Source of the DNA: Haloarcula rubripromontorii
GTDB lineage: Archaea; Halobacteriota; Halobacteria; Halobacteriales; Haloarculaceae
Reading direction: 5' to 3'
Length of the DNA stretch: 64,000 bases
Assembly (NCBI RefSeq): GCF_001280425.1
Contig: NZ_LIUF01000002.1
Location: forward strand, 62,001-126,000
Each line of letters starts with the position of its first letter. The stretch's first letter is position 1. The notes below the pieces were generated by a model that saw only the letters and a program-made list of their open reading frames with translations, made no database searches and was not told the origin of the DNA. Below are positions 2,449 to 20,725 of this stretch, one piece after another. The position numbers were made by a program, and so were the translations under genes.

Positions 2449-3003
2449 TTACGAAACTGCGAGTGTCTCTATTTGGTCGGTGATTTCATCAATTGCCGAC
2501 GAAATCAGGTCAAGGTCAGTAAGTCCAGTACAGACAATCTTCCCGCTGGCGAAAATCAAGATGACAGCATCTTCACCACGGTAGATGAGTGCGGGGAACT
2601 GCTCGGGTTCGTACTCGGTTTGCTCCAGTCCCAATCCGATAGCGATAGCTTCCAACGAGGGAAGTGAGTCCAACTCGGCAGTTGCGACAATGTTCTTGAT
2701 TTCAGCGGTAGGTTCGTAATCAAACTCCAGTAGTTCCCGCATCAACGTGTTCACCTGCCTCACTATCTTCTCGAAATGTTCTGGCGATGTCGCTCCGGCA
2801 ATTGAGCATTTGCCATTCCGATAGAACGGCACGTAGGTGTCATCGGGGGCAAATCGTGTCTGTAGCCAGTGGTTTTCGGCTGGCTCGTAGGTTACAGAGT
2901 TAATTTCGGGACGCTGTTCGAACGTCTCAGCTAACGCTGACAGGTCGAATTCCTGCTGGTAGGCCACCATCCCTACGACGTTCGCAATCTCGAACTCTGC
3001 CAC
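2449..3003 (-). CDS. Divergent TATA-binding protein
   Basis: A TBP-family protein of 184 residues, the usual archaeal length. The second repeat is canonical: IKNIVATAEL, IAIGLGLEQTEYEPEQFPALIYR and IFASGKIVCTG. The first repeat is strongly diverged: the EYEPEQFPGLIYR-type strand is replaced by YEPAENHWLQTRF and the SGKIVCTG strand by RNGKCSIAG. It probably binds promoter DNA or TFB, but with altered specificity (inference). The start is a GTG preceded by a TATA-like tttttattc about 26 nt upstream, so the mRNA looks leaderless. It sits in an integrated element beside zinc-binding proteins, so it is an accessory TBP and not the housekeeping one. Confidence 0.85.
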   Translation of the reverse strand: MAEFEIANVVGMVAYQQEFDLSALAETFEQRPEINSVTYEPAENHWLQTRFAPDDTYVPFYRNGKCSIAGATSPEHFEKIVRQVNTLMRELLEFDYEPTAEIKNIVATAELDSLPSLEAIAIGLGLEQTEYEPEQFPALIYRGEDAVILIFASGKIVCTGLTDLDLISSAIDEITDQIETLAVS

Positions 3004-4572: not shown

Positions 4573-5134
4573 GTTTTATTTTTTAAGCGATAGCGCGTGA
4601 AGCCGCATACTATAGAGGCCACCCCTTTCGCGGACCTACCCCTCGCTGGAGTGGGGTAAATGCGCTTGGTAACAACTCACACAGAGCGAAATCTTGAGCC
4701 AAGAAAACCGGCTACGCCCAAATTTCATCCCGTCTCAAAATGCGGTCAGATTAATGCGGTCCCATCGAGAATTACGCTGAATCCTGCTAATGACTCTAAA
4801 CATGCGCTATATGCATATATGGAATACACCCTATGCAGCCCAAGGATAGCGGTCAGCGAACTCACCCCAAGAAGTAACAGAATTCTTATTTTAGTGGTTG
4901 CCGCACCCGACAAATCGGGGAGTGTCACGCCTTAGTATAAATTTTCTTATGAAGTATTAGAGGCTATATTGGGGCTGATATAGCCACTCTTAGAAAATAC
5001 GGATGCGAAAAATCACCGGATGAGAAACCGGTTCATATTCCTACTCAGTATCAATCAAATCCTTAATACTAAGTGCCTACCAGCCCTACAATGTAGTACA
5101 TCCCGACGAAAACAACTGGGATGTCTGAGAACCT
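4573..5134. other. Non-coding region with small hairpins inside element 1
   Basis: About 560 bp without a convincing gene; the base composition is more AT-rich than the flanks. It holds short dyads: cccga-caaa-tcggg at 4906-4919, ggctatat/atatagcc at 4962-4985 (8-bp arms, 8-nt loop) and acatccc/gggatgt at 5098-5124. A TATA-like agtataaat is near 4934. A 91-codon open frame here (4660-4935) has no protein-like composition and was not called. Confidence 0.5.
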
Positions 5135-5221
5135 ATGATAGCGCAATACCTGCACGCAGAGCGGATGCTGTACGATTCGCAGAATGAGAGCGGCCAGTCG
5201 GTGGTGTCGAGCGATGAGTGA
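5135..5221 (+). CDS. Possible 28-residue leader peptide or mini-gene
   Basis: A short open frame beginning MIAQYLHAERMLYDSQNESG whose stop codon overlaps the start of the next gene (ATGAGTGA). The coupling suggests it is translated, but there is no homology that I recognise and the size is marginal. Confidence 0.35.
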   Translation: MIAQYLHAERMLYDSQNESGQSVVSSDE

Positions 5222-5798
5222 GTCTGAGCCGTGGTACGCTGGCTTCGACGTGGTCGACTTCGAATCGACTCCGATGAGTGAACTCCCTGAAGACGATGGC
5301 TTCCACCTCATCTGCCCAGTCGAGGGCTGTGACCACGAGGCTGATTTCGATGACCTTCCCGCAGTAGCGGACAGCGGTTGGTCGGAGATGAGCCGGAAAG
5401 ACCACATCCTTACCGATGGGACGACGCTCAAGGAGGCATACTGCCCCGCTCATTCTCTCGATGAGACGGAGACAACTGCTTCCGAGAGTATCGAGGAGGA
5501 CTTCGAGCAGTTCATTTCGGAGCTTCAGGATGGACTCGGAGAGCCACTGGATGCACGGGAGTCGCCACAGAAACCTGATAGAGCGAAGGCCGAGTACGCG
5601 ATGTACGACTTCGCAGAGGGAGAGGTCACACTCGATGGGAGTCTTCTGACCTGTGGCCACGATTCGTGCTACCAGCAGGAGGAAGTCGACGCTCCTGAAG
5701 ATGCGGAGGGTGTGGGTTGGGTGAGTGGCCAAATGGTCGGTATCCTGTCCGATGGGCAGATGCTGTTCGAAGGCCGCTGTCCTGAGCATCGAGAGTAG
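5214..5798 (+). CDS. Acidic protein with two repeated Cys/His zinc-binding units
   Basis: A 194-residue acidic protein. Two similar units are visible: one with CPVEGC, a GW pair, a DGTTLKEAYCPAH end, and a second with CGHDSC, a GW pair and a DGQMLFEGRCPEH end. Each unit could hold one zinc through C-x(3-4)-C and CP-x-H. The two are separated by an acidic helical linker rich in Glu. I do not recognise the family, and no enzyme motif is visible. The start at 5214 was preferred over an upstream in-frame ATG (5184) because it overlaps the preceding mini-ORF and removes a basic, non-haloarchaeal N-terminus. Confidence 0.72.
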   Translation: MSESEPWYAGFDVVDFESTPMSELPEDDGFHLICPVEGCDHEADFDDLPAVADSGWSEMSRKDHILTDGTTLKEAYCPAHSLDETETTASESIEEDFEQFISELQDGLGEPLDARESPQKPDRAKAEYAMYDFAEGEVTLDGSLLTCGHDSCYQQEEVDAPEDAEGVGWVSGQMVGILSDGQMLFEGRCPEHRE

Positions 5799-6108: not shown

Positions 6109-6160
6109 CCGCTCACCTACTTAAAGAATCACGTGGGGGAGGAGAAGTGAACCACCCCAA

Positions 6161-6210
6161 GTTGCGGATATTCCCCATATGGAAAGACAATACGGAATGC
6201 TTCCGCAAAA
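6161..6210. repeat. 50-bp dyad element, copy A
   Basis: Outer arms ttgcgga (6162-6168) and tccgcaa (6202-6208) are exact reverse complements, with an inner palindrome ccatatgg. It aligns without gaps to 10043-10092 (37 of 50 positions identical, counted by eye; both outer 8-10 bp blocks fully conserved). The two copies lie either side of the primase-helicase gene. Confidence 0.75.
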
Positions 6211-6300
6211 TAAAATAGCGGCAATATACACCTCAACCAGTAAGTTTACCAAAAAGTTTAAATAGGGGGAGCTCCTATAAAATAACACGAAGAAGTTGAG

Positions 6301-6355
6301 TACCGGTCGGTAAACCGGTATAGCACGAATCGGACGACTGTCTTTTGCCGATTCG
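6301..6355. promoter_or_regulatory. Two adjacent inverted repeats upstream of a small-gene pair
   Basis: taccggt/accggta with a 6-nt spacer (6301-6320) is followed by cgaatcgg/ccgattcg with a 14-nt spacer (6326-6355). Both arms are perfect. The position, upstream of the gene pair at 6436 and 6611, fits an operator, but no regulator can be assigned. Confidence 0.45.
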
Positions 6356-6435
6356 GGTGCTGTCGCGGAGTAATATCCAGCGTTGAGAACAGTCGGAGGT
6401 ATGCGGTTACAATCAGTCAACAAGGAGCTACAACT

Positions 6436-6618
6436 ATGACACGAGATAACACAATCGTCCTGTCGGACGAGGAACGAGAACTGGTCGAACAGGTAAAACA
6501 AGCACGCTATGGCGATGAAAGTCTTCCTCACGGCTTCGTTATCGGGAACGCACTCCGTCGAGACCTGCTCACTTCTCGTGAGACACGCACGGCTACGGAG
6601 GTGTCCATCGATGGGTGA
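6436..6618 (+). CDS. 60-residue hypothetical protein
   Basis: A short, mostly helical protein (DEERELVEQVKQARYGDESLP, then a VIGNALRRDLL helix). The layout resembles small ribbon-helix-helix-like or antitoxin-like proteins, but no motif is decisive. The stop overlaps the start of the next gene by 8 nt, indicating an operon with the zinc-ribbon protein downstream. Confidence 0.6.
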   Translation: MTRDNTIVLSDEERELVEQVKQARYGDESLPHGFVIGNALRRDLLTSRETRTATEVSIDG

Positions 6619-6988
6619 GATTACTGTCGAGGTAGATGGTATCGAACACACGTACGCTACGGAGGAATTTTTCGTCTGTGACCACTGTGACCACGGGTGG
6701 ATGAAATTCCCCGATGAGGACTCCGAAGCGTGTCCCGAGTGTAGAGCCGAAGAAGTCACGCTCACTGCAGAGCAAATCACAGACTATCCGAAGTGGCTCT
6801 GGGATGGTGCCGATAACATCGAGGAGATGGCGGCTCAAACGGAGCACAAAACGAAGCTCCTACGAAAGTTAGCGGAACGGGGATGGGCTCTGAACGAGCC
6901 ACCAAGGGATGGGTATGCGCGTCTGACAAGACCCGCAGAGCAAGACGGAAACTCCGACGAGATAGAGGTGACTCTCTCCGAGCAATAA
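6611..6988 (+). CDS. Zinc-ribbon protein
   Basis: A 125-residue acidic protein with CDHC near residue 21 and CPEC near residue 39, a four-cysteine zinc knuckle after a beta hairpin. The C-terminal part is helical (NIEEMAAQTEHKTKLLRKLAERGW). The start ATG at 6611 overlaps the previous gene; the upstream extension of this frame has non-haloarchaeal composition. The role is unknown. It is the gene immediately upstream of the primase-helicase, separated by a hairpin (6998-7017). Confidence 0.68.
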   Translation: MGEITVEVDGIEHTYATEEFFVCDHCDHGWMKFPDEDSEACPECRAEEVTLTAEQITDYPKWLWDGADNIEEMAAQTEHKTKLLRKLAERGWALNEPPRDGYARLTRPAEQDGNSDEIEVTLSEQ

Positions 6989-6997
6989 GTCTCTGAA

Positions 6998-7017
6998 CCA
7001 GCTATTGGTGTAGCTGG
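6998..7017 (+). terminator. Hairpin downstream of the zinc-ribbon gene
   Basis: ccagcta/tagctgg form a perfect 7-bp stem with a 6-nt loop, 9 nt after the stop codon. No long T tract follows, so termination is only a possibility. Confidence 0.35.
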
Positions 7018-7161
7018 CTCAGGGAGGTCAAAAAGAATGATTCCAGTTAATAGTTATAACCCCAGCGTATTAAAAGTTTCGATTATATTACTCTCGGAAG
7101 AAACTCGGGGAGGGTCGCGGGCTCTCGACCTCGCCATAGCTGCGGCCAGAGGTGAGCTGCT

Positions 7162-10029
7162 ATGAGCACAAGCGTCGGCTCATCGGTCGAGACGACAGCG
7201 ATGGAGCGCAAAGAGGTCGCTACAGCACGAGCGAATGCCGCTGCCCTCCGCCACTCGCTCGCAGAAGTTCATTCGAATCCCGTCACCATCTGGAACACCT
7301 CGGACGAGGAGCGCGCCGACCTGCTGGCCGACTATCTCGATGCCCTCGAAAGAGCCTGTCCGAACCCTCGGCTCATCCCGCTCAACGAAACAGGGAAAGC
7401 GCCAGCTATCGCGCGAACCTGTCCGCTCGACTCACAGCAGGCACACGAGATGCTTCATACACGAGAAGAAGCCATCGCCGCCATCGAACAAGGTGCAAAC
7501 GGCTTCGCCCTCTACGCAGGGCGCTCGGACCACGGAACGGAGGACCTGGTCTTCGCAGACCACGACGATATGCACGCATTTCCGCTCGACACTCTGCCCG
7601 ATACTCTCACTGTCGTCTCTGGGTCGGGCGAGGGCTATCACGAAACCTTCGTGAATGCGGACGATGTCCAGAATGGCAAAAGCGATGCGGGCGAGATTCG
7701 GGCGAGCAACTGGTATGTGGTACTACCCGGTTCCATCCATCCATCTGGCGGTATCTACCACCTCGAAGAATCGCGTCCGCTCGCAGACCTGGAAACTGCC
7801 GACATCCCCGAAGGGCTTCTCCCTGCTGGTTCCTGCGAGGAACACGAGGAGATAGACCTCTCAAAAGGGTCGGGAGACGGCACGTTCACAAACGAGGTAG
7901 GGATGCCGCTTTCGGCAGTTCGGGAGTACGACGAGGAACTCGACGGACTGCTGAACACACCCCCTCGTCCCAACACCGATACGCAAGACGATAGCCGAAT
8001 AGATGCCGCCCTCGTCTGGCGGTTGTGCTTCCATCACTTCGGCTTACCGGCCATCGCCGCCATCTGGAGACAGTACCGTCCTCGTCCAAAGGTGGAGCGC
8101 GACGACTACGTTCAGATGACCCTCCAGTTCGCAGGAACGCACAATACACGGTGTCGTTATGATGGAAGCGAGGAATCCATCGCTCTCCCCGAAACCCCAT
8201 CTACGACTGACTGGGAGTGGCAGGACGGCGCTGCGGACGATGAGGCGGCTCTAACGCTGGATGAAGCGCGTACTCGATGCCAGAGACGGATAGACACTAC
8301 TCTCCGCAACGGCGAACACACGCTGATAGATGCGCTTCCAGCGATGGGGAAAAGCTCTGGCGTCATTCGGGGAGCAGAGAAGACTGATACTCCCATCAGT
8401 GTGTTCACTGCTCGGCACGACCTCTACGGACAGTACAGCGAATGGTGCGAGGAACACGGCCTATCGTATCATCGACTTCCGTCCTTCCACGAGGACTGTC
8501 CTACGGCTCGTGGCGAACACGGCGATGACTGGCGCAAGGACGTGCTCGAACTCTACGACGAGGGAGTGATGGCCAGCGAGATTCATAAGTGGACGGAGCA
8601 GTACTTCGGCCAGTCGCTCCCCTGCGATGATGGGCAAGAATGCGACTACAAACAGGGATGGGATTTCGACTCGGACGAGTTCGAGGTTCTCATCGGTCAC
8701 TACCAGCACGCCTACAATCCAGACCTCACCGCAGGGCGGGTCGCCGTCTTCGACGAGTTTCCCGCCGATTCGTTCCTGTTGGAATTCGAGGGTGACACGG
8801 TTACATCAGCGGTGTCGGCCTATGTTTCCGAACAGGACGGCCTTCCCTTCGAGGACTTCACCGAACTGGTCGAAGGTCGTACCTCCGAAGAAGGGAAAAA
8901 AGCGCGCGAGTGGTTCGATGCCGATGACCTCGAACGAGACGGTGAGCCTGTCCTGAAAGACGCAAGCGGCTCGGCCAATGCCTACGCGCCCCTGCTCACA
9001 TACGCGGTCCTCGTCGGAGAGAACCTCAGGAATGGATGGGAACACACCGACCTCGACCCAGAGGCAGGTGTCGACAATCATCGGAAGGCAGCACGGAATC
9101 GAGATTCGGGGAAGGTGTTCCTGCTCCTATCCCCCGAACTGGATGAGGCACGCGGTGTCCTCGCCCTCGACGGAACGCCGACACCCGACCTCTGGCAACT
9201 CGTGGTCGACACTCGACTGAGCCACGAGCAAGTACTCTCGGACAAGGAACGGGCGGATTATCTCACCCACGCACTCGGCTGTTCCATCGTCCAAACGACG
9301 GACGCTACCAAGACGTATTCGAGCGGCACATACGTCAAACCCGAAGAAGACAGCCTCCTGTTCGAAGCGGTGGCCGAGCGTGAGGGGACAGAGCCAGCCC
9401 TCATCTCGACAGCGAAGGCCATCAGCCAGTACGAACAGGAGGGAGCACTCACCCCTATCGGGAAGCACGAACACTACGGCAATCTGAAGGGGTCGAACCA
9501 GTTCCAAGAGGAGCGGGTCGGAGTCATCACAGGGAGCCAGCACTACGGAGATGACTATGTCGAGATGTGGGGCGCACTCACTGGTGAGGACATCGAACGA
9601 GTCGGTGACAGCAAAGGGATGAACCTCGATTACGGCGAGTTCGGGAACAAAGTTCTTCGCCAAATGCGCGAGCACGAGGTGCTCCAAGCCGTGCTACGGT
9701 TCGGGCGAGACAAGCACCCCACTACCGTCTACGTACATACTGCTGCTCTGCCAGAATGGGTACCAGTCGAAGCAGAGGGGCACATCGAACGCTGGAGCAA
9801 AGGAGTGCAAGAAGTGGTCAAAGTACTGGAGAACGACGCTCCCGACAAGTGGCGGACCAGCGATGTCGCGGAACAGGTGAGCATCTCCACGCGGCAGGTG
9901 CGGACGAACCTTAACAAACTCGCGGATGCTGGCTATGCCGAGAAGCGACAAGAGGGTCGGGGAATTACGTGGGTCGTCACCGAGGAGACAATAGACCGAC
10001 TCGGTCAAGTCGAGTTCCGCTCGTCATAG
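7162..10029 (+). CDS. Primase-polymerase/helicase replication protein
   Basis: A 955-residue multi-domain replication protein. The N-terminal archaeo-eukaryotic primase (PrimPol) domain shows the metal-binding DHD (FADHDD, residues about 131-136) and the SIHPSGG motif (about 191-197), as in pRN1-type PrimPol. A P-loop helicase follows: AMGKSSG (about 394-400), Walker B-like VAVFDEFP (about 528-534) and a late arginine-finger-like AVLRFGRD. The C-terminus is a winged helix (WRTSDVAEQVSISTRQVRTNL...). It most likely primes and unwinds the element's DNA. The start has GGTGAG about 8 nt upstream. A TATA-like gattatatta lies near 7081. Confidence 0.88.
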   Translation: MSTSVGSSVETTAMERKEVATARANAAALRHSLAEVHSNPVTIWNTSDEERADLLADYLDALERACPNPRLIPLNETGKAPAIARTCPLDSQQAHEMLHTREEAIAAIEQGANGFALYAGRSDHGTEDLVFADHDDMHAFPLDTLPDTLTVVSGSGEGYHETFVNADDVQNGKSDAGEIRASNWYVVLPGSIHPSGGIYHLEESRPLADLETADIPEGLLPAGSCEEHEEIDLSKGSGDGTFTNEVGMPLSAVREYDEELDGLLNTPPRPNTDTQDDSRIDAALVWRLCFHHFGLPAIAAIWRQYRPRPKVERDDYVQMTLQFAGTHNTRCRYDGSEESIALPETPSTTDWEWQDGAADDEAALTLDEARTRCQRRIDTTLRNGEHTLIDALPAMGKSSGVIRGAEKTDTPISVFTARHDLYGQYSEWCEEHGLSYHRLPSFHEDCPTARGEHGDDWRKDVLELYDEGVMASEIHKWTEQYFGQSLPCDDGQECDYKQGWDFDSDEFEVLIGHYQHAYNPDLTAGRVAVFDEFPADSFLLEFEGDTVTSAVSAYVSEQDGLPFEDFTELVEGRTSEEGKKAREWFDADDLERDGEPVLKDASGSANAYAPLLTYAVLVGENLRNGWEHTDLDPEAGVDNHRKAARNRDSGKVFLLLSPELDEARGVLALDGTPTPDLWQLVVDTRLSHEQVLSDKERADYLTHALGCSIVQTTDATKTYSSGTYVKPEEDSLLFEAVAEREGTEPALISTAKAISQYEQEGALTPIGKHEHYGNLKGSNQFQEERVGVITGSQHYGDDYVEMWGALTGEDIERVGDSKGMNLDYGEFGNKVLRQMREHEVLQAVLRFGRDKHPTTVYVHTAALPEWVPVEAEGHIERWSKGVQEVVKVLENDAPDKWRTSDVAEQVSISTRQVRTNLNKLADAGYAEKRQEGRGITWVVTEETIDRLGQVEFRSS

Positions 10030-10042
10030 ACAGAGGGCGCGA

Positions 10043-10092
10043 GTTGCGGAGGTTTCCCATATTGGGATACAATATGCCAGAGTTCCGCAAAA
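10043..10092. repeat. 50-bp dyad element, copy B
   Basis: Second copy of the element at 6161-6210. Outer arms ttgcgga and tccgcaa are conserved, with an inner dyad ccca-tat-tggg. It lies between the convergent ends of the primase-helicase and integrase genes, so it cannot be a promoter of either. A replication or partition site, or a structured RNA end, is more likely. Confidence 0.75.
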
Positions 10093-10134
10093 CATCCAGA
10101 CCTACGTGTTTCCCAGAGAGATGAGCGGCTGGTA

Positions 10135-11277
10135 CTATCCCATCCGGTTCAGGGCATCTCGTCTATCATCGGGAGGAGCGTGGTCATATCGAAGGGTCGT
10201 CTTCGAGGAGCGGTGTCGGAGTTGCGCCTGAGCCGCCGCTAACCCCTCTTCTCGCGCCATAAACGTCCCGACGCTGTGGCGAATCGAGTACCAGCTTATG
10301 TCTCGATTCTCGGTGTCAATCCCTGCTTGTTCGCACACTCGTCGGAGGACGTGGTTGAGTGCGTGACTTCCGTAGGGGTTCGCTTGCCGAGTGAGCCAGA
10401 GAGTGTCGGTGCCTTCGTACATCTCGTACTGTTCCCTCTCGTCTAACCAGCGAGCCAAGGCTTCTGCTGTCCGGTCAGTGAGGCTCACAGTCCAGTTGTC
10501 GATATTCTTCGAACTCTCCTCTTTCGGGATACGGAGAACTCGGTTTTGTGCATCGACCCACCCCGTTGTCGCACGTTCGACTTCGATTGGACGTAGGCCA
10601 GTATCGAGTGCGGTCCATATGAGTGAGGGGAACTTCCACGAGTTCGCACGGTCAAAGTCATCTGGACCAACCTCAGTTTTCGGCTTCACGAATCGTTGGG
10701 ACAGGTACTCCTTCCACTCGTCTCGCTCTTCCGGTGACAGAGAATTGTACGAAGGGACAGACCCGTACTCCAAGACTGTTTCTCTAATCTGTTGACGCTC
10801 CTCGACAGAGAGGTAGTCGCGCGGGTTCGTCGTACTGGTGTCGTTGGAGAATGTGAGTTCTGGGTCCCACTCTTCTTCATCGAACTCCCACGTACGCCAT
10901 CGAAACAGGGTCTTCAGCGCCTTCATCATATTCGCTTTCGTGTCTTGTGAGGCGTCACTGTAGGCCAGTTCACGCATATACTCGTCTGCGCACTCGTGCG
11001 AGACGTGCGTGGTGTACCCATCTTCTTGCTCCCACACCCATCGGTAGAACTTATCGACCCTCGCACAACGGATGTCTGCCGTCGCTTCGGCGTACCCCTC
11101 GCCGTGCTCTGGGCCTTTTCCGAGGTTGAGTACCCACTTGATGAACTTCTCCCGATGGGCGCGATAGTCCGAAATCTGGCGTTCTGCAAGCTCTTCTGCC
11201 GTTGGCTCAGTTATGATTGAAATCCCGTGACGGCGCGGGGACGATTCACCCGAACCTGTGTTCTTGGCTTTCGTCAT
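10135..11277 (-). CDS. Tyrosine recombinase / integrase of element 1
   Basis: A 380-residue integrase with an N-terminal SAM-like core-binding domain and a C-terminal catalytic domain. Visible catalytic parts are TGLRPIEV (first Arg), a Lys in the beta hairpin, YSIRHS (box II Arg, with Tyr at the place of the usual His), LRHRSSKTT and the nucleophile Tyr in LRYDHA. It starts 57 nt from the 3' end of tRNA-Arg, the normal position for an integrase acting on that tRNA. The recombination site is presumably the tRNA 3' end; the partner site lies left of the window. Confidence 0.93.
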   Translation of the reverse strand: MTKAKNTGSGESSPRRHGISIITEPTAEELAERQISDYRAHREKFIKWVLNLGKGPEHGEGYAEATADIRCARVDKFYRWVWEQEDGYTTHVSHECADEYMRELAYSDASQDTKANMMKALKTLFRWRTWEFDEEEWDPELTFSNDTSTTNPRDYLSVEERQQIRETVLEYGSVPSYNSLSPEERDEWKEYLSQRFVKPKTEVGPDDFDRANSWKFPSLIWTALDTGLRPIEVERATTGWVDAQNRVLRIPKEESSKNIDNWTVSLTDRTAEALARWLDEREQYEMYEGTDTLWLTRQANPYGSHALNHVLRRVCEQAGIDTENRDISWYSIRHSVGTFMAREEGLAAAQAQLRHRSSKTTLRYDHAPPDDRRDALNRMG

Positions 11278-11323: not shown

Positions 11324-11334
11324 AGGAATTGGAA

Positions 11335-11407
11335 CGTCCGGACGGAGATTTGAACTCCGGTCCCTGGCTCCGCAAGCCAAGAGGATAGTCCACTACCCTA
11401 TCCGGAC
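11335..11407 (-). tRNA. tRNA-Arg (GCG)
   Basis: A 73-nt cloverleaf on the minus strand. The acceptor stem is gtccgga/tccggac. The anticodon loop TTGCGGA gives GCG, reading CGC (Arg). The T arm is ccgga-gttcaaa-tctccg-like. No CCA is encoded. A TATA-like tttttagg lies about 30 nt upstream. The 3' end is the inferred attachment site of element 1. Confidence 0.93.
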
Positions 11408-15155: not shown

Positions 15156-16534
15156 ATCGCCAAATCGACACCAAAGCCGTCGGCAAGCGTTGCGATGTCT
15201 GTGCCGACCAGTACGTCGTACCCGCTCTCAAGTGCCGACTCGATCCGCGGCCCCAGCCCGACCTCGTACACTGCATCGCTCGACAGAAACCCAGTAGCTG
15301 TAGTGAATACCCGGGGTCGCTCGACGACGTAGCGCCCGCCGTCGATGAAAGGGCCGGCCACCTCGGAGTTGTCGTCGTACTTTTCAAAGAACCCGCTCGC
15401 GTGCTCGCGGACATGCACCGGCGGCCCCTCGTGACGCTCGACGGCCGGCCGCTGGGCGACGGCGAATTCGAGCAGCAGGACGGCGTCCCGTTCTTGGCTC
15501 TCGCCGTCTGGTGCTTCCTCCGCACCGTTGTCGCCCTCGACGAACGCGGCTGACCGCAGGACCTCGAACCCGCGTCGGTCGAGTTCGCTGCAGAGCCCGC
15601 CGAGGGACTTCCGGAGCTGTGGCCAGAGCTGGTCGTCGACGACATCCGGGGCGGCGAAACGGAGCGCCACTGGCGTCGTTTCCCGCTGTGACACCGCGGC
15701 CTCGATGTCTGCTGCCGTGAACGGGGCCGGGTCGTCCTCGGTGAACAGCGACGCCCGTGGCTCGGCGAGGAGGTCCCGGGCGTAGTGCTGGAGCGTGGCA
15801 ACGTTTGTAGCGGACAACACTGCCGCGACATTGCGCTCCGGGTCCGTCGGATCGATGACGACCAGCGGATCGTCAAACGTCTCGGTTCCGTGGCGCTCGG
15901 GGTCCAGCCGAACTGGCGGGTGCCAGTCCGCGACTGCCTCGACGAACTCCCGGAACCCGCCGTACTCAAGCACCAGTAGCTCCGCTAGATACCCAGAGAA
16001 CCCGCGCGTCCGGAGGTCGCTCCCGTAGACGCCGATGCCTTTCAGGAACTGTTTTGCCACCCGGACCTCACCCGCGCTGTCGTCGTCCAGTCGCGCCTGC
16101 AGGTATCTGGTGTGAAACGGCGTGCGGTCCACTGCGGACTTGATTTCGGTGGCGCCTGCGACCGCATAACAGGGCACCAGGTCGATAGCGTACCCCTCGC
16201 GCTCGCCGACGACGTAGGGATGTTCGGCGTACTCCTCGCGCCCATCTGGGAGGACGTCGTGTCCGACGACCAGGCCGTACTCCTCCAACTGCTCGCGGTC
16301 AAGAGACGGCGGAAAGCAGACGAACACGTCCACATCTCGGTCCCCAGCGGTCCACGTCCCTCGTGCCGTCGAGCCGACCTGCACCACTTCCGCTTCGACC
16401 GGGAGGTCGGCGATGGCTGCTTCGGCGTCGGCTATCACCGCGTCGGCGACCCGCTGTAACTGCGCCTGTTCGTCGTCAGTGGGCGAGACCCGCGTTCGCA
16501 CCGTATCGACGACGGCGTCGAACTCATCGCTCAT
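15134..16534 (-). CDS. cca: CCA-adding enzyme (tRNA nucleotidyltransferase), archaeal class I
   Basis: Adds CCA to tRNA 3' ends; the tRNAs nearby do not encode CCA. The 466-residue protein has the nucleotidyltransferase motif VGSTARGTWTAGDRDVDVFV (GS...DxD) near residues 50-70, the tRNA-NucTransf2 domain (KQFLKGIGVYGSDLRTRGFSGY) and a C-terminal domain, normal for class I. The ATG at 16534 was chosen; the frame is open upstream but that part is low-quality and runs towards tRNA-Asn. It overlaps the convergent hdaI gene by 22 nt. Confidence 0.95.
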   Translation of the reverse strand: MSDEFDAVVDTVRTRVSPTDDEQAQLQRVADAVIADAEAAIADLPVEAEVVQVGSTARGTWTAGDRDVDVFVCFPPSLDREQLEEYGLVVGHDVLPDGREEYAEHPYVVGEREGYAIDLVPCYAVAGATEIKSAVDRTPFHTRYLQARLDDDSAGEVRVAKQFLKGIGVYGSDLRTRGFSGYLAELLVLEYGGFREFVEAVADWHPPVRLDPERHGTETFDDPLVVIDPTDPERNVAAVLSATNVATLQHYARDLLAEPRASLFTEDDPAPFTAADIEAAVSQRETTPVALRFAAPDVVDDQLWPQLRKSLGGLCSELDRRGFEVLRSAAFVEGDNGAEEAPDGESQERDAVLLLEFAVAQRPAVERHEGPPVHVREHASGFFEKYDDNSEVAGPFIDGGRYVVERPRVFTTATGFLSSDAVYEVGLGPRIESALESGYDVLVGTDIATLADGFGVDLAIYFAPKP

Positions 16535-16629
16535 ACCGCCGCTTGCGCACAAGTGCGTGAAAGCGTGTCGATGCCGACTGGAAACGAAAGCCCTAATTAC
16601 CAACTCTGGCAATGACTGAATGCGTTCGC

Positions 16630-16702
16630 GCCGCCGTAGCTCAGTTGGTAGAGCACCTGGTTGTTACCCAGGTTGTCCCAGGTTCGAGCCCTGGCGGTGG
16701 CG
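16630..16702 (+). tRNA. tRNA-Asn (GTT)
   Basis: A 73-nt cloverleaf with acceptor gccgccg/cggtggc. The anticodon stem cctgg/ccagg encloses loop TTGTTAC, giving GTT (Asn). D and T arms are standard. CCA is not encoded. Confidence 0.95.
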
Positions 16703-16808
16703 TCGTTCTCTCGGCCGATTTCACTGCCAGTCTGTCGCTTTCAGCTATCGGAACCCGATGACTCGAACCCGACAGGCTAAAGATGCGGACTCATCAACAT
16801 CGTTCTGA

Positions 16809-16883
16809 GGGCCCTTAGCTTAGTCTGGTTAAAGCGATCGGCTCATAACCGATTGAGCGCTGGTTCAAATCCGGCAGGGCCCA
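16809..16883 (+). tRNA. tRNA with CAT anticodon (Ile2 or elongator Met)
   Basis: A 75-nt cloverleaf with acceptor gggccct/agggccc and anticodon loop CTCATAA (CAT). The gggccc acceptor suggests the agmatidine-modified tRNA-Ile2, but an elongator tRNA-Met cannot be excluded from sequence alone. The T arm is gctgg-ttcaaat-ccggc. Its 3' end, ccggcagggcccat, is repeated exactly at 31041-31054 and is the attachment site of the provirus. Confidence 0.9.
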
Positions 16884-16884
16884 T
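16871..16884. repeat. attL of the provirus (14-bp direct repeat)
   Basis: ccggcagggcccat at the 3' end of the CAT tRNA is repeated exactly at 31041-31054. The integrase gene ends just inside the right copy. The unit between the two copies is about 14.17 kb. Confidence 0.9.
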
Positions 16885-16993
16885 CCCGTTCCTGCCTGAA
16901 TCGTATCCCAAACGAATCGGTAGCTTCAGGTGTGCGAGCGGTTGCAATTCGGCTATATCGGGGTTCGAGTACACCCCCGCTGAAACCTGAGTT

Positions 16994-17010
16994 CAACAAG
17001 CCTCTTGTTG
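16994..17010. promoter_or_regulatory. Hairpin near the left end of the provirus
   Basis: caacaag/cttgttg is a perfect 7-bp stem with a 3-nt loop, about 45 nt before the first provirus gene. It could be a recombinase or regulator arm site, or a transcript leader structure. Confidence 0.35.
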
Positions 17011-17055
17011 GGGGTCGCTGCTGTCCGGCGGTTTTGCGATTCGGAGGTGCGAGTG

Positions 17056-17286
17056 ATGAGTAAGGCGTCAGCGCCTGCTACGCTCCCTGAGAAGGGCGTG
17101 CGGAACCGTTCGCAGTACGCGGACACGCTGCACCGCCTCGACCCTGACGCGGACGAGCCACAACCCGCCTGTCCCGAAGCCGAGTACCGAAGTGACGCGG
17201 AGTTCACGGACGTTCCTATCGCCGCGTATCGGCCCCACTACAAACTCTGTGGGAACCCGGAGTGTTTCGGAGGTGACTGGCGATGA
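17056..17286 (+). CDS. Small provirus protein with C-terminal cysteines
   Basis: A 76-residue protein, first of the rightward early operon. The C-terminal segment YKLCGNPECFGGDWR carries a CxxxxC pair; an upstream Cys (QPACPEAEY) could help form a metal site. No known function. It overlaps the next start codon (ATGA at 17283-17286), so it is translationally coupled with the helix-turn-helix gene. Confidence 0.65.
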   Translation: MSKASAPATLPEKGVRNRSQYADTLHRLDPDADEPQPACPEAEYRSDAEFTDVPIAAYRPHYKLCGNPECFGGDWR

Positions 17287-17480
17287 GTCCGCAGTCGTCG
17301 CTCTTCGACTACGAACCGGACCTGTCGCCGCTGACTGACGCCGAACGGGAGGTGTTCAAAGCTGTGGGCATGGGCCAGTATGGGCCCCGTGAGTACGCCC
17401 GCAAGACCGACCGCGCACCGGGTACAGTCGGGAATCTGCTTCGGCGAGCCCGTGAGAAAATCGAGGTGACCAGCGCGTGA
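17283..17480 (+). CDS. Small helix-turn-helix protein
   Basis: A 65-residue protein with a sigma-region-4-like helix-turn-helix: LTDAEREVFKAVGMGQYGPREYARKTDRAPGTVGNLLRRAREK. Such small HTH proteins are common next to the replication gene of haloarchaeal viruses and plasmids and may regulate it. Its stop overlaps the GTG of the next gene (GTGA). Confidence 0.78.
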   Translation: MSPQSSLFDYEPDLSPLTDAEREVFKAVGMGQYGPREYARKTDRAPGTVGNLLRRAREKIEVTSA

Positions 17481-17620
17481 AGGGGTTTGTTCGAGCCTCC
17501 CGACTGTACGATGTAGAGGCGGGTGAACCCCTTCAGTTCGACTGGACAAACCACCAGCCACTCGCGGAGAGTCAGGCCGAAGTCGAGCGGGCTGTCGCGG
17601 AGATCGAGGGCGGGAGGTAG
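17477..17620 (+). CDS. 47-residue protein, GTG start
   Basis: A short frame (first residues MKGFVRASRLYDVEAGEPLQ) that begins in a GTGA overlap with the HTH gene and ends 2 nt before the start of the large replication gene. The acidic C-terminal helix and tight packing between two coupled genes support translation. Function unknown. Confidence 0.6.
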   Translation: MKGFVRASRLYDVEAGEPLQFDWTNHQPLAESQAEVERAVAEIEGGR

Positions 17621-17622
17621 GG

Positions 17623-19386
17623 ATGTCGCGGCATCTCAAATGTGCCCCTCATGAGGGCGACGTGCGCTTTACGATTGGCGTGCATCCCGACCCCAGCGTG
17701 CCGGAATACGGGCTGAAACCCTACTACGCGATGGATTCCCTCATCAAGGAGTGGGGCGACCGCTGGGAAACCGAAGGGAAGCCGACCAGAGACATCGAGT
17801 TCAACGGCGAAACGTGGGCCACCTGCTTCGACTACTCCGAAAGCGGTCTGGATGCGTGGGACAATCCCGAGTTCCAGATTCAGAACGTCCGCGAGTTCCA
17901 GTTCTACTTCGTCGCGAAGAACTCGCCCACCTACGAGGGGAAGCGGGCAGATCGGGACAAGCGCGTGAAGGGCGGGACGATCACCGTCCGCCCACGGTGG
18001 CCGAACCTCACGTCGGATGGCGAACCCGTGTCTGTACCGGACTACGGCGCGCCGTACATCGACGTGCAGGTGCAGGCATCGAACCTGCCCCACGAGGAGT
18101 ATCTGACGCTGGTGAAGCGCGTGATGGACGCCTACGGAATCGCCGCGCGGTACTTCGACCAGCCACACCCAGACAGCCACATCAGCGACCTCGCGTACTA
18201 CGTCCGGCTGTACCGGGCAGACAGCGGGCCGCTGTACGCGCCGGACGGGCCGATAGCGCGGTGTCACACGCTGATTCAGGGCGACCGCTCAGGCTATCGC
18301 AAGCACGTCGAAGACAACACGAAACTGCCAGGATACTACGTCACTGCCACCGTTGAAGACGAGAAGGCCGACCAGCTGGTCCGTGGGCATGGGCTGGGGA
18401 AGGAACTCAAGCACTACTACCCGAACCACCCGGAGAACTACGAGCCGGATCATCCGATGTACCACCCGAAGTTCGAAGTCGCCTACCAGACCAGCCGAAC
18501 CGAGGAAACCGTTCGGTGGGACCACCTCGACGACGCCCGGCGCGAGCTGGAAGAGACGATCTTGAACTGTCTGGACTGGTGTGGGCTTGCGACCAGCGCT
18601 GATAGCAGTGTATTCGTTGATTTTGATCCGTTCTGGAACGTTCGCGATACGACGGAAGCCCGGAAGTTCGTGCAGTGTCCGCTGCCGAAGATCGAAGACG
18701 ACCAGGAGCACCGCGTGATGCAGCTGTGGGGCGACATGACCACCGCAGACCGCGACGTGACGGAGTTGTTGCTGACCGACGGCGGGAAGGTCTCGCCCCA
18801 GGCGGCAGCTGAGCAGACGGGCTACACCTACCGAACGATCCGGACAGTGATCGACCGGATGGAAGGGCTGATCGAACACACCTACGGCGAACTGGAACTG
18901 TCGTCGAAAAAGATCCAGCAGGAACTGTTGAAGCGAGTTCGCGCCGCCGGTGATCGATTCCAGCAGGAGATCGGGAGCGCGGCGATGGAGTTGGCTGACG
19001 CCGCGGAGGAACGTGCGCGGTCACGATGGGCGCGGGTTCGTCGCGAGTACGCTATCACGGAGACGGACGCTGACGACTGCCGGAAGCTGTTGAAGGTTGG
19101 CTACACGCCGGCTGACTTCGAGGAAGCGCGGAACATCCTGCGTGAGATTCAGACGGCGTACACGCAGTGTGTCGAAGACAACACCTACGGCGTCCACGTG
19201 ACCGTTGAGACGGCCGACGGCGGCCGTGAGCGGTTCCGTGACCTGTCGAAGGCGTTCCGGACGGCCTACCGGTCAGGTGACTACCGACGGGAGGAACGCG
19301 CCGCAGAGAGTGCCCGCGACGGGTTCGACTTCGAGGCGTGGAAAGCGGCCGGCTGTCCGCCGGCCGACGAGTGGCGCGGCGGGTAG
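17623..19386 (+). CDS. Large putative replication protein of the provirus
   Basis: A 587-residue acidic protein in the position of the replication gene in betapleolipovirus-like proviruses: last of the early operon and followed by strong stem-loops. A winged-helix or HTH segment is visible near residues 376-420 (VTELLLTDGGKVSPQAAAEQ...YRTIRTVIDRMEG), preceded by a long N-terminal domain without recognisable catalytic motifs. A helical C-terminal half follows, rich in Arg and Glu. No rolling-circle HUH or primase motif is evident, so the biochemical activity is not established; the replication role is inferred from position and size. Confidence 0.65.
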   Translation: MSRHLKCAPHEGDVRFTIGVHPDPSVPEYGLKPYYAMDSLIKEWGDRWETEGKPTRDIEFNGETWATCFDYSESGLDAWDNPEFQIQNVREFQFYFVAKNSPTYEGKRADRDKRVKGGTITVRPRWPNLTSDGEPVSVPDYGAPYIDVQVQASNLPHEEYLTLVKRVMDAYGIAARYFDQPHPDSHISDLAYYVRLYRADSGPLYAPDGPIARCHTLIQGDRSGYRKHVEDNTKLPGYYVTATVEDEKADQLVRGHGLGKELKHYYPNHPENYEPDHPMYHPKFEVAYQTSRTEETVRWDHLDDARRELEETILNCLDWCGLATSADSSVFVDFDPFWNVRDTTEARKFVQCPLPKIEDDQEHRVMQLWGDMTTADRDVTELLLTDGGKVSPQAAAEQTGYTYRTIRTVIDRMEGLIEHTYGELELSSKKIQQELLKRVRAAGDRFQQEIGSAAMELADAAEERARSRWARVRREYAITETDADDCRKLLKVGYTPADFEEARNILREIQTAYTQCVEDNTYGVHVTVETADGGRERFRDLSKAFRTAYRSGDYRREERAAESARDGFDFEAWKAAGCPPADEWRGG

Positions 19387-19467
19387 CCACGCCCCCTGGA
19401 TAGAGGCATCACTATCTCGCACACGTTTTTAGCGGCAATACTGTGCGTTTTCTCCCGAAAATCGCGT

Positions 19468-19517
19468 GTCGCGCGGCTTGGTTCGTTCCCGCTGGTCACG
19501 TCACCCAGCCGCGCGAC
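19468..19517. promoter_or_regulatory. Long stem-loop 1 downstream of the replication gene
   Basis: gtcgcgcggct (19468-19478) and agccgcgcgac (19507-19517) form a perfect 11-bp stem. After one mismatch a further ggt/acc closes. The remaining loop is about 20 nt. Candidate replication origin or transcription terminator. Confidence 0.6.
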
Positions 19518-19520
19518 CAG

Positions 19521-19553
19521 GGGGAACCCGGAAAGCAAGCTTCCGGGTTCCCC
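19521..19553. promoter_or_regulatory. Long stem-loop 2 downstream of the replication gene
   Basis: ggggaacccggaa (19521-19533) and ttccgggttcccc (19541-19553) form a perfect 13-bp stem with a 7-nt loop agcaagc, 3 nt after stem-loop 1. It is followed by tta rather than a T tract, so origin or structured RNA is as likely as terminator. Confidence 0.65.
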
Positions 19554-19660
19554 TTAGTCGTGTGGCTAAGGCCACCTACCCAAAATACACTGCACAGCTA
19601 CCATTTCGAGCAGAAGCATTGTCGCAGATGTTTTATTTCATCAAAAAGATGGTAGTCACT

Positions 19661-20725
19661 ATGGACTGGCCAAGTCGGTTCGTTACTGCTGAGGAACTAA
19701 GCGAAATGCAAACATCCAGCCGAACCGTTGTCCCATATCATCTGAGATATAAAAACTCTAGCTTGATGTTTGCTGGACTGGTTTACGATGAGAATGATAA
19801 TGAACTCAGTTATCATTACTATCATCCTTATAACAAATCTTGGGAAGTACTTGACAGTATAGAACCAAATAAAGTAGTTTCTGATTGGTCCAGCACGTTT
19901 AAAGGAGATTTGTATGTTTTTGGTGAAGATGCAGTCACATCTAGAGAAAATCACTATCAGCTTGGTGACAAGATATCTTCCATAATTGGCCAACCCATGT
20001 TTCTGTACAGTCACGACTCTCTTCTATCAATAACTGGACGAACACATCCAGATGACTGCGACTGTACCAGAAATGATTTTGATGAAAGACCCATGTCAAT
20101 GGAGAATGAAGGAGGAGAAGATGTTATTTTGATTAAATGCTCAGACTGTGGCGTACCTTATTATATCGGCCATCCAGGCAATGAAATCAGTATAGATACG
20201 GCTCTGACAGAAGACTGGATATTTGACAGATACTCCCCCGAAATTGATGGTACTGTCAACGGACTAGTTTGTTACTACATTGACCCTCCTGCAAGCAGCA
20301 GAATAAACAGTGCCATCACCGCGATGGTTGATGAGGTAAATATTGAAACAGGACTCGCTACGGACTACAATCCAGATATGGACGAATTTGTCCTATTGTC
20401 AAATGGAGAGAACATAATTGGGTTTATTTCTTGGAGTATTCGCTGGGGGCATAAGACTTTACAGCAAGTATACGTACGGGAGAACTCTCGAAATAAGGGA
20501 TACGGGCGAGATGCTATCCAATGGTGGTTTGAAAAATATGGTGAAGATACGGTCTATTCTGACCAAATGAATGAGATAAGCCGGAAAGTATTCACCGATA
20601 TGGGTCTTTTCCGGGATGGGGACCATGAGACAACTGTTGTTGAATTCTCTGACTTTTATCCACAAGGCATAGAGATTGATAAGAAGGTTTATGATGTATA
20701 TCCTAATCAGGCTTTTTCGATCTGA
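19661..20725 (+). CDS. GNAT-domain protein, AT-rich cargo gene
   Basis: A 354-residue protein. The C-terminal third has an acetyltransferase core: LQQVYVRENSRNKGYGRDAIQWWFE, with the acetyl-CoA-binding R/Q-x-x-G-x-G/A-like segment RNKGYG. The N-terminal part is of unknown fold and contains a possible zinc site (DDCDC and CSDC). Codon use and base composition are clearly more AT-rich than neighbouring virus genes, so it looks acquired. The ATG at 19661 was chosen because ttttattt about 27 nt upstream gives a leaderless start. It converges with the nuclease gene, 6 nt apart. Possible roles are superinfection exclusion or toxin; this is speculation from position. Confidence 0.7.
   Translation: MDWPSRFVTAEELSEMQTSSRTVVPYHLRYKNSSLMFAGLVYDENDNELSYHYYHPYNKSWEVLDSIEPNKVVSDWSSTFKGDLYVFGEDAVTSRENHYQLGDKISSIIGQPMFLYSHDSLLSITGRTHPDDCDCTRNDFDERPMSMENEGGEDVILIKCSDCGVPYYIGHPGNEISIDTALTEDWIFDRYSPEIDGTVNGLVCYYIDPPASSRINSAITAMVDEVNIETGLATDYNPDMDEFVLLSNGENIIGFISWSIRWGHKTLQQVYVRENSRNKGYGRDAIQWWFEKYGEDTVYSDQMNEISRKVFTDMGLFRDGDHETTVVEFSDFYPQGIEIDKKVYDVYPNQAFSI

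Follow-up and report, generated by a model that had tools for sequence, protein, structure and literature searches.

A symmetrical dyad directly behind the rep gene of an integrated element in Haloarcula rubripromontorii is probably that element's replication origin, a reading to which we assign a probability of roughly 0.6. The element carries three copies of the dyad, here called c1, c2, and c3. In our analysis, c2 is the likely origin, and c1 and c3 are copies that Rep, the element's initiator, would also read. The basis is what was observed: dyads recur at rep 3′ ends, their arms covary between families, the copies occupy particular positions, and homology breaks at them. From these observations, we infer Rep binding, initiation, and the roles of c1 and c3. 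Specifically, c2 is judged to be the origin because the haloarchaeal dyads share with the origin of plasmid pRN1 its position, a symmetry maintained without sequence conservation, and association with a winged-helix Rep. Origins have been defined for only a minority of archaeal plasmids and integrated elements. Searches of the open-paper literature returned no earlier report of these haloarchaeal dyads, and no binding or replication data for any haloarchaeal member.

Dyad copies and the element that carries them

Two copies, c1 (6161–6210, + strand) and c2 (10043–10092, + strand), lie in the window, the 64-kb stretch of DNA under analysis. As an earlier note on this DNA stated, they match at 37 of 50 positions without gaps; among other 50-mers of the window, the top score is 27. 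Roughly 0.007 ungapped pairs as good as this one are expected in the window, and a degenerate family pattern finds exactly c1 and c2 there and nothing in 100 shuffles. The conserved outer arms and inner dyad described earlier are present in both copies, each an imperfect dyad with outer TTGCGGA/TCCGCAA and inner CATAT-n9-ATATG-like sequences. The core consists of two inverted half-sites of ~19 bp around a 9-nt centre. The 50-bp extent holds for the dyads themselves, but most copies are part of a larger nested dyad, approximately CCGCTCATCT-n6-GAAGCACGTG-(47-bp core)-n18-CACGTGCTTC-n6-AGATGAGCGG, with outer arm pairs CCGCTCATCT/AGATGAGCGG and GAAGCACGTG/CACGTGCTTC. Extended c2 is a 112-bp nested dyad (10017–10128, +) whose left arm overlaps the Rep stop and whose right arm reaches to within 6 bp of the integrase stop. 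The left outer arms of c1 (CCGCTCACCT ... CACGTG) occupy 6109–6160 (+).

The elements had been described as a pair. Both exist, but the total is three: c3 lies outside the window, 3 kb to its left (G000:C2:58997–59046) and 274 bp inside the left attachment site. A site-model search of the host genome (G000) yields exactly these three copies, and no other site with this core, allowing up to 3 mismatches, occurs in the 3.97-Mb genome. Neither position nor element gives a clear grouping of the copies. As single-stranded DNA, c1 and c2 fold moderately (z −2.3 and −1.8), c3 folds poorly and no better than chance (z −1.5), and the c3 of a sister element, in genome G036, folds end to end (z −6.0). 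A test of a hairpin-RNA reading revealed no compensatory arm changes within the window element's own site family. With arm changes uncompensated there, what that family keeps is not the folded hairpin itself; the pattern fits protein-read half-sites more readily than an obligatory hairpin.

The element is 14,656 bp long and is integrated in a tRNA-Arg(GCG) gene (11335–11407, − strand; ARAGORN). It is bounded by an exact 47-bp repeat of the 3′ half of tRNA-Arg, with attR at 11332–11378 and attL at G000:C2:58676–58722, 3.3 kb outside the window. The order, left to right, is attL, c3, cargo, c1, replication operon, c2, tyrosine integrase, and attR. Viewed as a circle, c1, c2, and c3 part the cargo, replication, and integration (int + attP) modules. 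The cargo comprises a type I restriction system, a TBP-like gene, a SWIM zinc-finger gene, and small genes. The TBP-family gene (2449–3003) adjoins the type I restriction-modification system. A further cargo stretch of ~650 bp (4575–5228) is 86% identical to DNA of a second sister element, in genome G289, and has no convincing acidic ORF; it is possibly a conserved non-coding or small-ORF region. The 7-mer TTGCGGA also occurs in the anticodon loop of tRNA-Arg. We considered whether this is an att relic and treat it as coincidence, because genomes G289 and G050 carry the site yet use tRNA-Val and adjoin tRNA-Ile, respectively.

The earlier placement of one copy upstream of a gene and the other between convergent genes is borne out. 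Copy c1 is the upstream border of the replication module; 226 bp downstream of it comes the 60-aa ORF (6436–6618, +) that opens the replication operon. That ORF is kept in G036 and G289 and has no informative family match. Downstream of c1 is a TATA-like box (AGTTTAAATA; 6255–6264, +), kept in the sister elements and presumably part of a promoter. A Zn-ribbon-like ORF (6611–6988, +, read from the ATG at 6611) is kept in G036; no match to it was found in G289. The 955-aa Rep (7162–10029, +) was characterized by Pfam, NCBIfam, a PDB profile, an AlphaFold model, and Foldseek. Copy c2 lies between the convergent stops of Rep (10029) and a 380-aa tyrosine integrase (10135–11277, −), its core centred 37 bp past the Rep stop.

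Rep proteins and the dyads behind their genes

The Rep of the window has an N-terminal AEP Prim-Pol domain (aa 70–210; Pfam) and, at its C-terminus, a winged helix (roughly aa 895–946; NCBIfam and PDB profile). The AlphaFold model of aa 316–955 (mean pLDDT 85) has XPD and DinG helicases as its best Foldseek matches. Thus, by its model, the Rep helicase resembles XPD/DinG and is of SF2, unlike the SF3 helicase of pRN1. The G036 Rep is 84% identical in its helicase–winged-helix part and has a DnaG-type N-terminus (DNAG_N + Toprim_2). With SF2 helicases, and in G036 a DnaG-type primase, these proteins depart from the pRN1-type arrangement of AEP, SF3 helicase, and winged helix. The primase swap is visible at one and the same tRNA-Arg site: window 7162–8160 encodes the Prim-Pol and L036:8766–9973 the DnaG-type primase. 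Many homologues, at 600–650 aa, leave no room for a fused primase. The dyad accompanies all three kinds of Rep and so follows the helicase–winged-helix part. Site divergence correlates equally strongly with helicase and winged-helix divergence, and partial Mantel tests did not separate the two effects; site divergence therefore does not point to the winged helix in particular as the reader. No phage records encoding a related Rep were found.

Homologous Rep proteins occur in 137 of 391 genomes. We scanned 68 distinct Rep loci for palindromes between −150 and +60 of the rep stop. At least 15 of 21 pairs are found at 28 of the 68 loci; control windows reach this level in 2.5% of cases and shuffled sequences in 0.5%. 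With one locus per 60%-identity cluster, 18/39 reach that threshold (control windows, 1.8%) and 13/39 have at least 16 of 21 pairs (0.06%). In many families, a 46–50-bp dyad lies 11–58 bp past the rep stop and the arms differ (for example, CACGTGAGTCAT/ATGACTCACGTG and ATCGGTGGAAA/TTTCCACCGAT). In one class with a C-terminal extension, the dyad is inside the coding frame, ~108–141 nt before the stop. Haloarchaeal plasmids and integrated elements carry dyads alike, among them two circular plasmids (8.9 and 10.8 kb) in which the 3′ end of rep holds the dyad. Twenty loci (~30%) score below 13/21 near the rep stop and have no convincing dyad there.

The dyads had been chosen as best palindromes, so we measured covariation in the class with the coding extension, where the gene fixes the position. 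Across 13 homologous dyads in the shared extension, 88% of cells are paired, and covariation is 0.41 versus 0.135 for shuffles (0 of 500 reach the observed value) and at most 0.125 for slid controls. Symmetry is maintained while sequence varies between families, and not within the window element's own family. A half-site plan is common across the families compared, with an outer CGGAACT-like box and an inner CGTATAG-like box. The half-sites of L018 (GTGCGGAACTGGCGCGTA) and window c2 (TTGCGGAACTCTGGCATAT) are nearly identical.

Most relatives possess a single dyad, behind rep. Exceptions include G117, with a second dyad upstream of the rep frame, and G048, with two copies. In G223 and G230, whose arm sequences are different, a second copy lies 164–169 bp from tRNA-Ala, as c3 lies near its tRNA in the window element. 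These second copies match at 32/46 and 29/46 positions, versus means of ~21–23 in random 600-bp stretches. The host itself encodes a Rep paralog (G000:C1:292764–295412; L037) that is 38% identical and belongs to another element, at tRNA-Ile, with a 29-bp att duplication; a 15/21 palindrome lies upstream of this gene and none in the downstream position. The small plasmids NZ_CP100453.1 and NZ_CP095486.1 (regions L146:10441 and L147:8497) have another palindrome in common, distinct from the dyad and immediately upstream of a small integrase gene, possibly the attP core of that integrase.

Sister elements and module borders

We searched the site model against 391 haloarchaeal species genomes, to which the families of the window and G289 genomes were added. 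Strong matches are confined to five genomes in that set. Nine others give weak matches (E up to 0.05), no more than chance allows, and neither sequence inspection nor tRNA genes near the matches, checked in most of the nine, supported them. Exact-pattern scans of viral contigs and of genome contigs gave no match, which for the genome contigs may reflect the very degenerate pattern. The G036 element occupies the same tRNA-Arg site, with a 46-bp att duplication and three copies (L036 2358, 7766, and 11854). The G289 element has four copies and is integrated in tRNA-Val, where its att duplication is 25 bp long. In all three elements, the copies are at corresponding places and in direct orientation; the counterparts of c1, for example, are L036:7766 and L035:7880. 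Thus, the earlier proposal to look for further copies near homologous PrimPol genes was productive, and the wider set of Rep genes revealed a dyad of the same build at many 3′ ends, where the pRN1 origin lies. Two orphan copies are also known. One (L081:9467, in G050) is ~200 bp from tRNA-Ile, with no Rep homologue reported nearby, and the other (L082:13670, in G205) is ~250 bp from tRNA-Arg(CCG), on a contig that ends in the site. No close Rep was found for either locus.

DNA homology between the elements mostly starts or stops at the copies. In blastn comparisons, in which window-element coordinates are window positions plus 10,000, homology between the window and G036 elements ends at 7092, the end of the c3 right arm, and resumes at 16161, exactly where c1 starts. 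Homology between the window and G289 elements runs from 16158 to 20128, the c2 right arm (window 10128), followed by a different integrase module. The G036–G289 homology begins at 2423, immediately past c3, and extends to 11939. Breakpoints also occur away from copies, such as inside the cargo and at the rep start. Directly repeated sites thus bound exchangeable modules in these elements, as they do in pdif/Xer modules. The window integrase is 94% identical in G036 and has no convincing similarity to that of G289 (best match, E = 0.04). Because c2 nonetheless belongs to the same family in the window and G289 elements, the integrase is unlikely to be its reader; between these two, the site sequence does not follow the integrase as Int arm or core sites do.

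A candidate origin, its alternatives, and known systems

The hypothesis is that the Rep encoded by the element recognizes the dyads and that c2 acts like the stem-loop 3′ of pRN1 orf904. Once the element excises, the C-terminal winged helix of Rep would bind the dyad half-sites. Subsequently, the XPD/DinG-like helicase would open the DNA, and the N-terminal primase, or a host primase where none is fused, would start synthesis. In the lineage of the window element, the origin unit would have been multiplied to three or four places in a single orientation. Copy c1, upstream of the rep operon promoter, could permit autoregulation. Copy c3 sits ~200–300 bp in from the attachment site, where it could link replication with integration or excision, and the copies, as conserved islands, may be linkers at which modules are exchanged. 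This multiplication and att-proximal placement are the unusual part of the system.

Several observations count against c2 being an origin. The 20 loci scoring below 13/21 and the upstream palindrome of the host paralog do not follow the rule, arm changes in the element's own family are uncompensated, c3 folds no better than chance, and the helicase class differs from that of pRN1. Since most relatives have a single dyad, the additional copies would have to be accounted for separately. GC skew computed on the circularised elements gave no origin signal. The earlier note offered origin iterons as one possibility; an origin is the best supported of the readings, but "iterons" is a loose term for a dyad that is single in most relatives.

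The same note raised recombination sites defining a mobile module. Here, the copies would be pdif-like sites of a site-specific system whose recombinase swaps cargo, replication, and integration modules at the core. The direct orientation of every copy in three elements, their location at module borders, and the blastn breakpoints agree with this idea. Yet the breakpoints mark the outer edges of extended sites rather than the core centre, the cargo–rep–int order is conserved, and single-copy members, plasmids included, retain the dyad behind rep. Moreover, Rep is the best common candidate reader, the integrases differ, and no recombinase is implicated. Use of host Xer/dif is likewise disfavoured by the lack of any other core site in the genome, where the search found only the three element copies and did not pick out the host dif. 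For the breakpoints, homologous recombination between conserved linkers is as good an explanation as dedicated sites, and we consider the latter unlikely. Dyads acting as regulator-bound operators, or as terminators ending convergent transcripts, are somewhat less likely still. The position of c1 upstream of the TATA-like box, that of c2 between convergent stops, and the several copies abutting gene 3′ ends would suit such functions. Archaeal terminators, in turn, are normally T-rich tracts and not long dyads such as these. One dyad class is inside a coding frame, and c3 of G036, between att and a gene 3′ end, is upstream of no gene. Finally, partition (centromere-like) or incompatibility sites for an element-encoded winged-helix protein are improbable. 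Several copies per element would accord with such a role, as would a weak PDB-profile match of the Rep winged helix to the centromere-binding protein TubR, one among many others; against it, in most elements only one dyad is present, behind rep, and no ParA/TubZ partner gene is seen in the replication module.

If c2 is an origin, a sequence rule would exist for locating candidate origins in dozens of haloarchaeal elements, the pRN1-type origin would be known from a further phylum and with an initiator whose helicase is of XPD/DinG type, and a concrete cis element would be available for vectors. Copies at conserved borders suggest a route for swapping primases, integrases, and cargo. We speculate, with considerable doubt, that these elements form a replicon class with a swappable primase, an XPD/DinG-type initiator, and several origin copies that double as module-exchange borders, the copy beside attP coupling replication to integration or excision. 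If so, the G050 and G205 loci could be satellites that use a helper's Rep.

Known systems provide partial parallels. pdif sites are ~28 bp long and are used by host XerC/D. Unlike them, the haloarchaeal sites are 47–125 bp, have no matching chromosomal site, and occur in a conserved module order. Two reports on Acinetobacter plasmids describe short pdif dyads flanking exchangeable replicon modules (PMC13141974, PMC6449649), and to that extent the haloarchaeal dyads are similar. The phage P4 alpha protein is, like Rep, a primase–helicase–winged-helix initiator; it reads its origin via the winged helix, and the G036 Rep even has a DnaG/Toprim-type primase. The alpha helicase is of SF3. The haloarchaeal elements, with an SF2 helicase and symmetrical dyads, differ from P4, whose origin uses iterons (PMC4234260).

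The closest counterpart is pRN1 of Sulfolobus. Its 100-bp stem-loop begins 54 bp 3′ of orf904, which encodes an AEP–helicase–winged-helix protein; the stem-loop is required, changes to its structure abolish replication, and in isolation, even relocated, it restores replication of an origin-less construct (PMC4234260; PMC3869888). Among pRN1 relatives, the structure of the stem-loop is kept and its sequence is not (PMC4234260; PMC3869888). The haloarchaeal system differs in its XPD/DinG-like SF2 helicase, where pRN1 has SF3, in a primase that is interchangeable or absent, and in a 46–50-bp core with unpaired inner stretches, present in three or four copies in the lineage of the window element and so far a candidate origin only. 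Like pRN1, it has a small upstream gene in the same operon as rep and a symmetry conserved between relatives whose sequences are not (PMC4234260). Both place a large dyad directly 3′ of the gene for a primase–helicase–winged-helix Rep, as seen at c2 and in the enrichment over 39 clusters.
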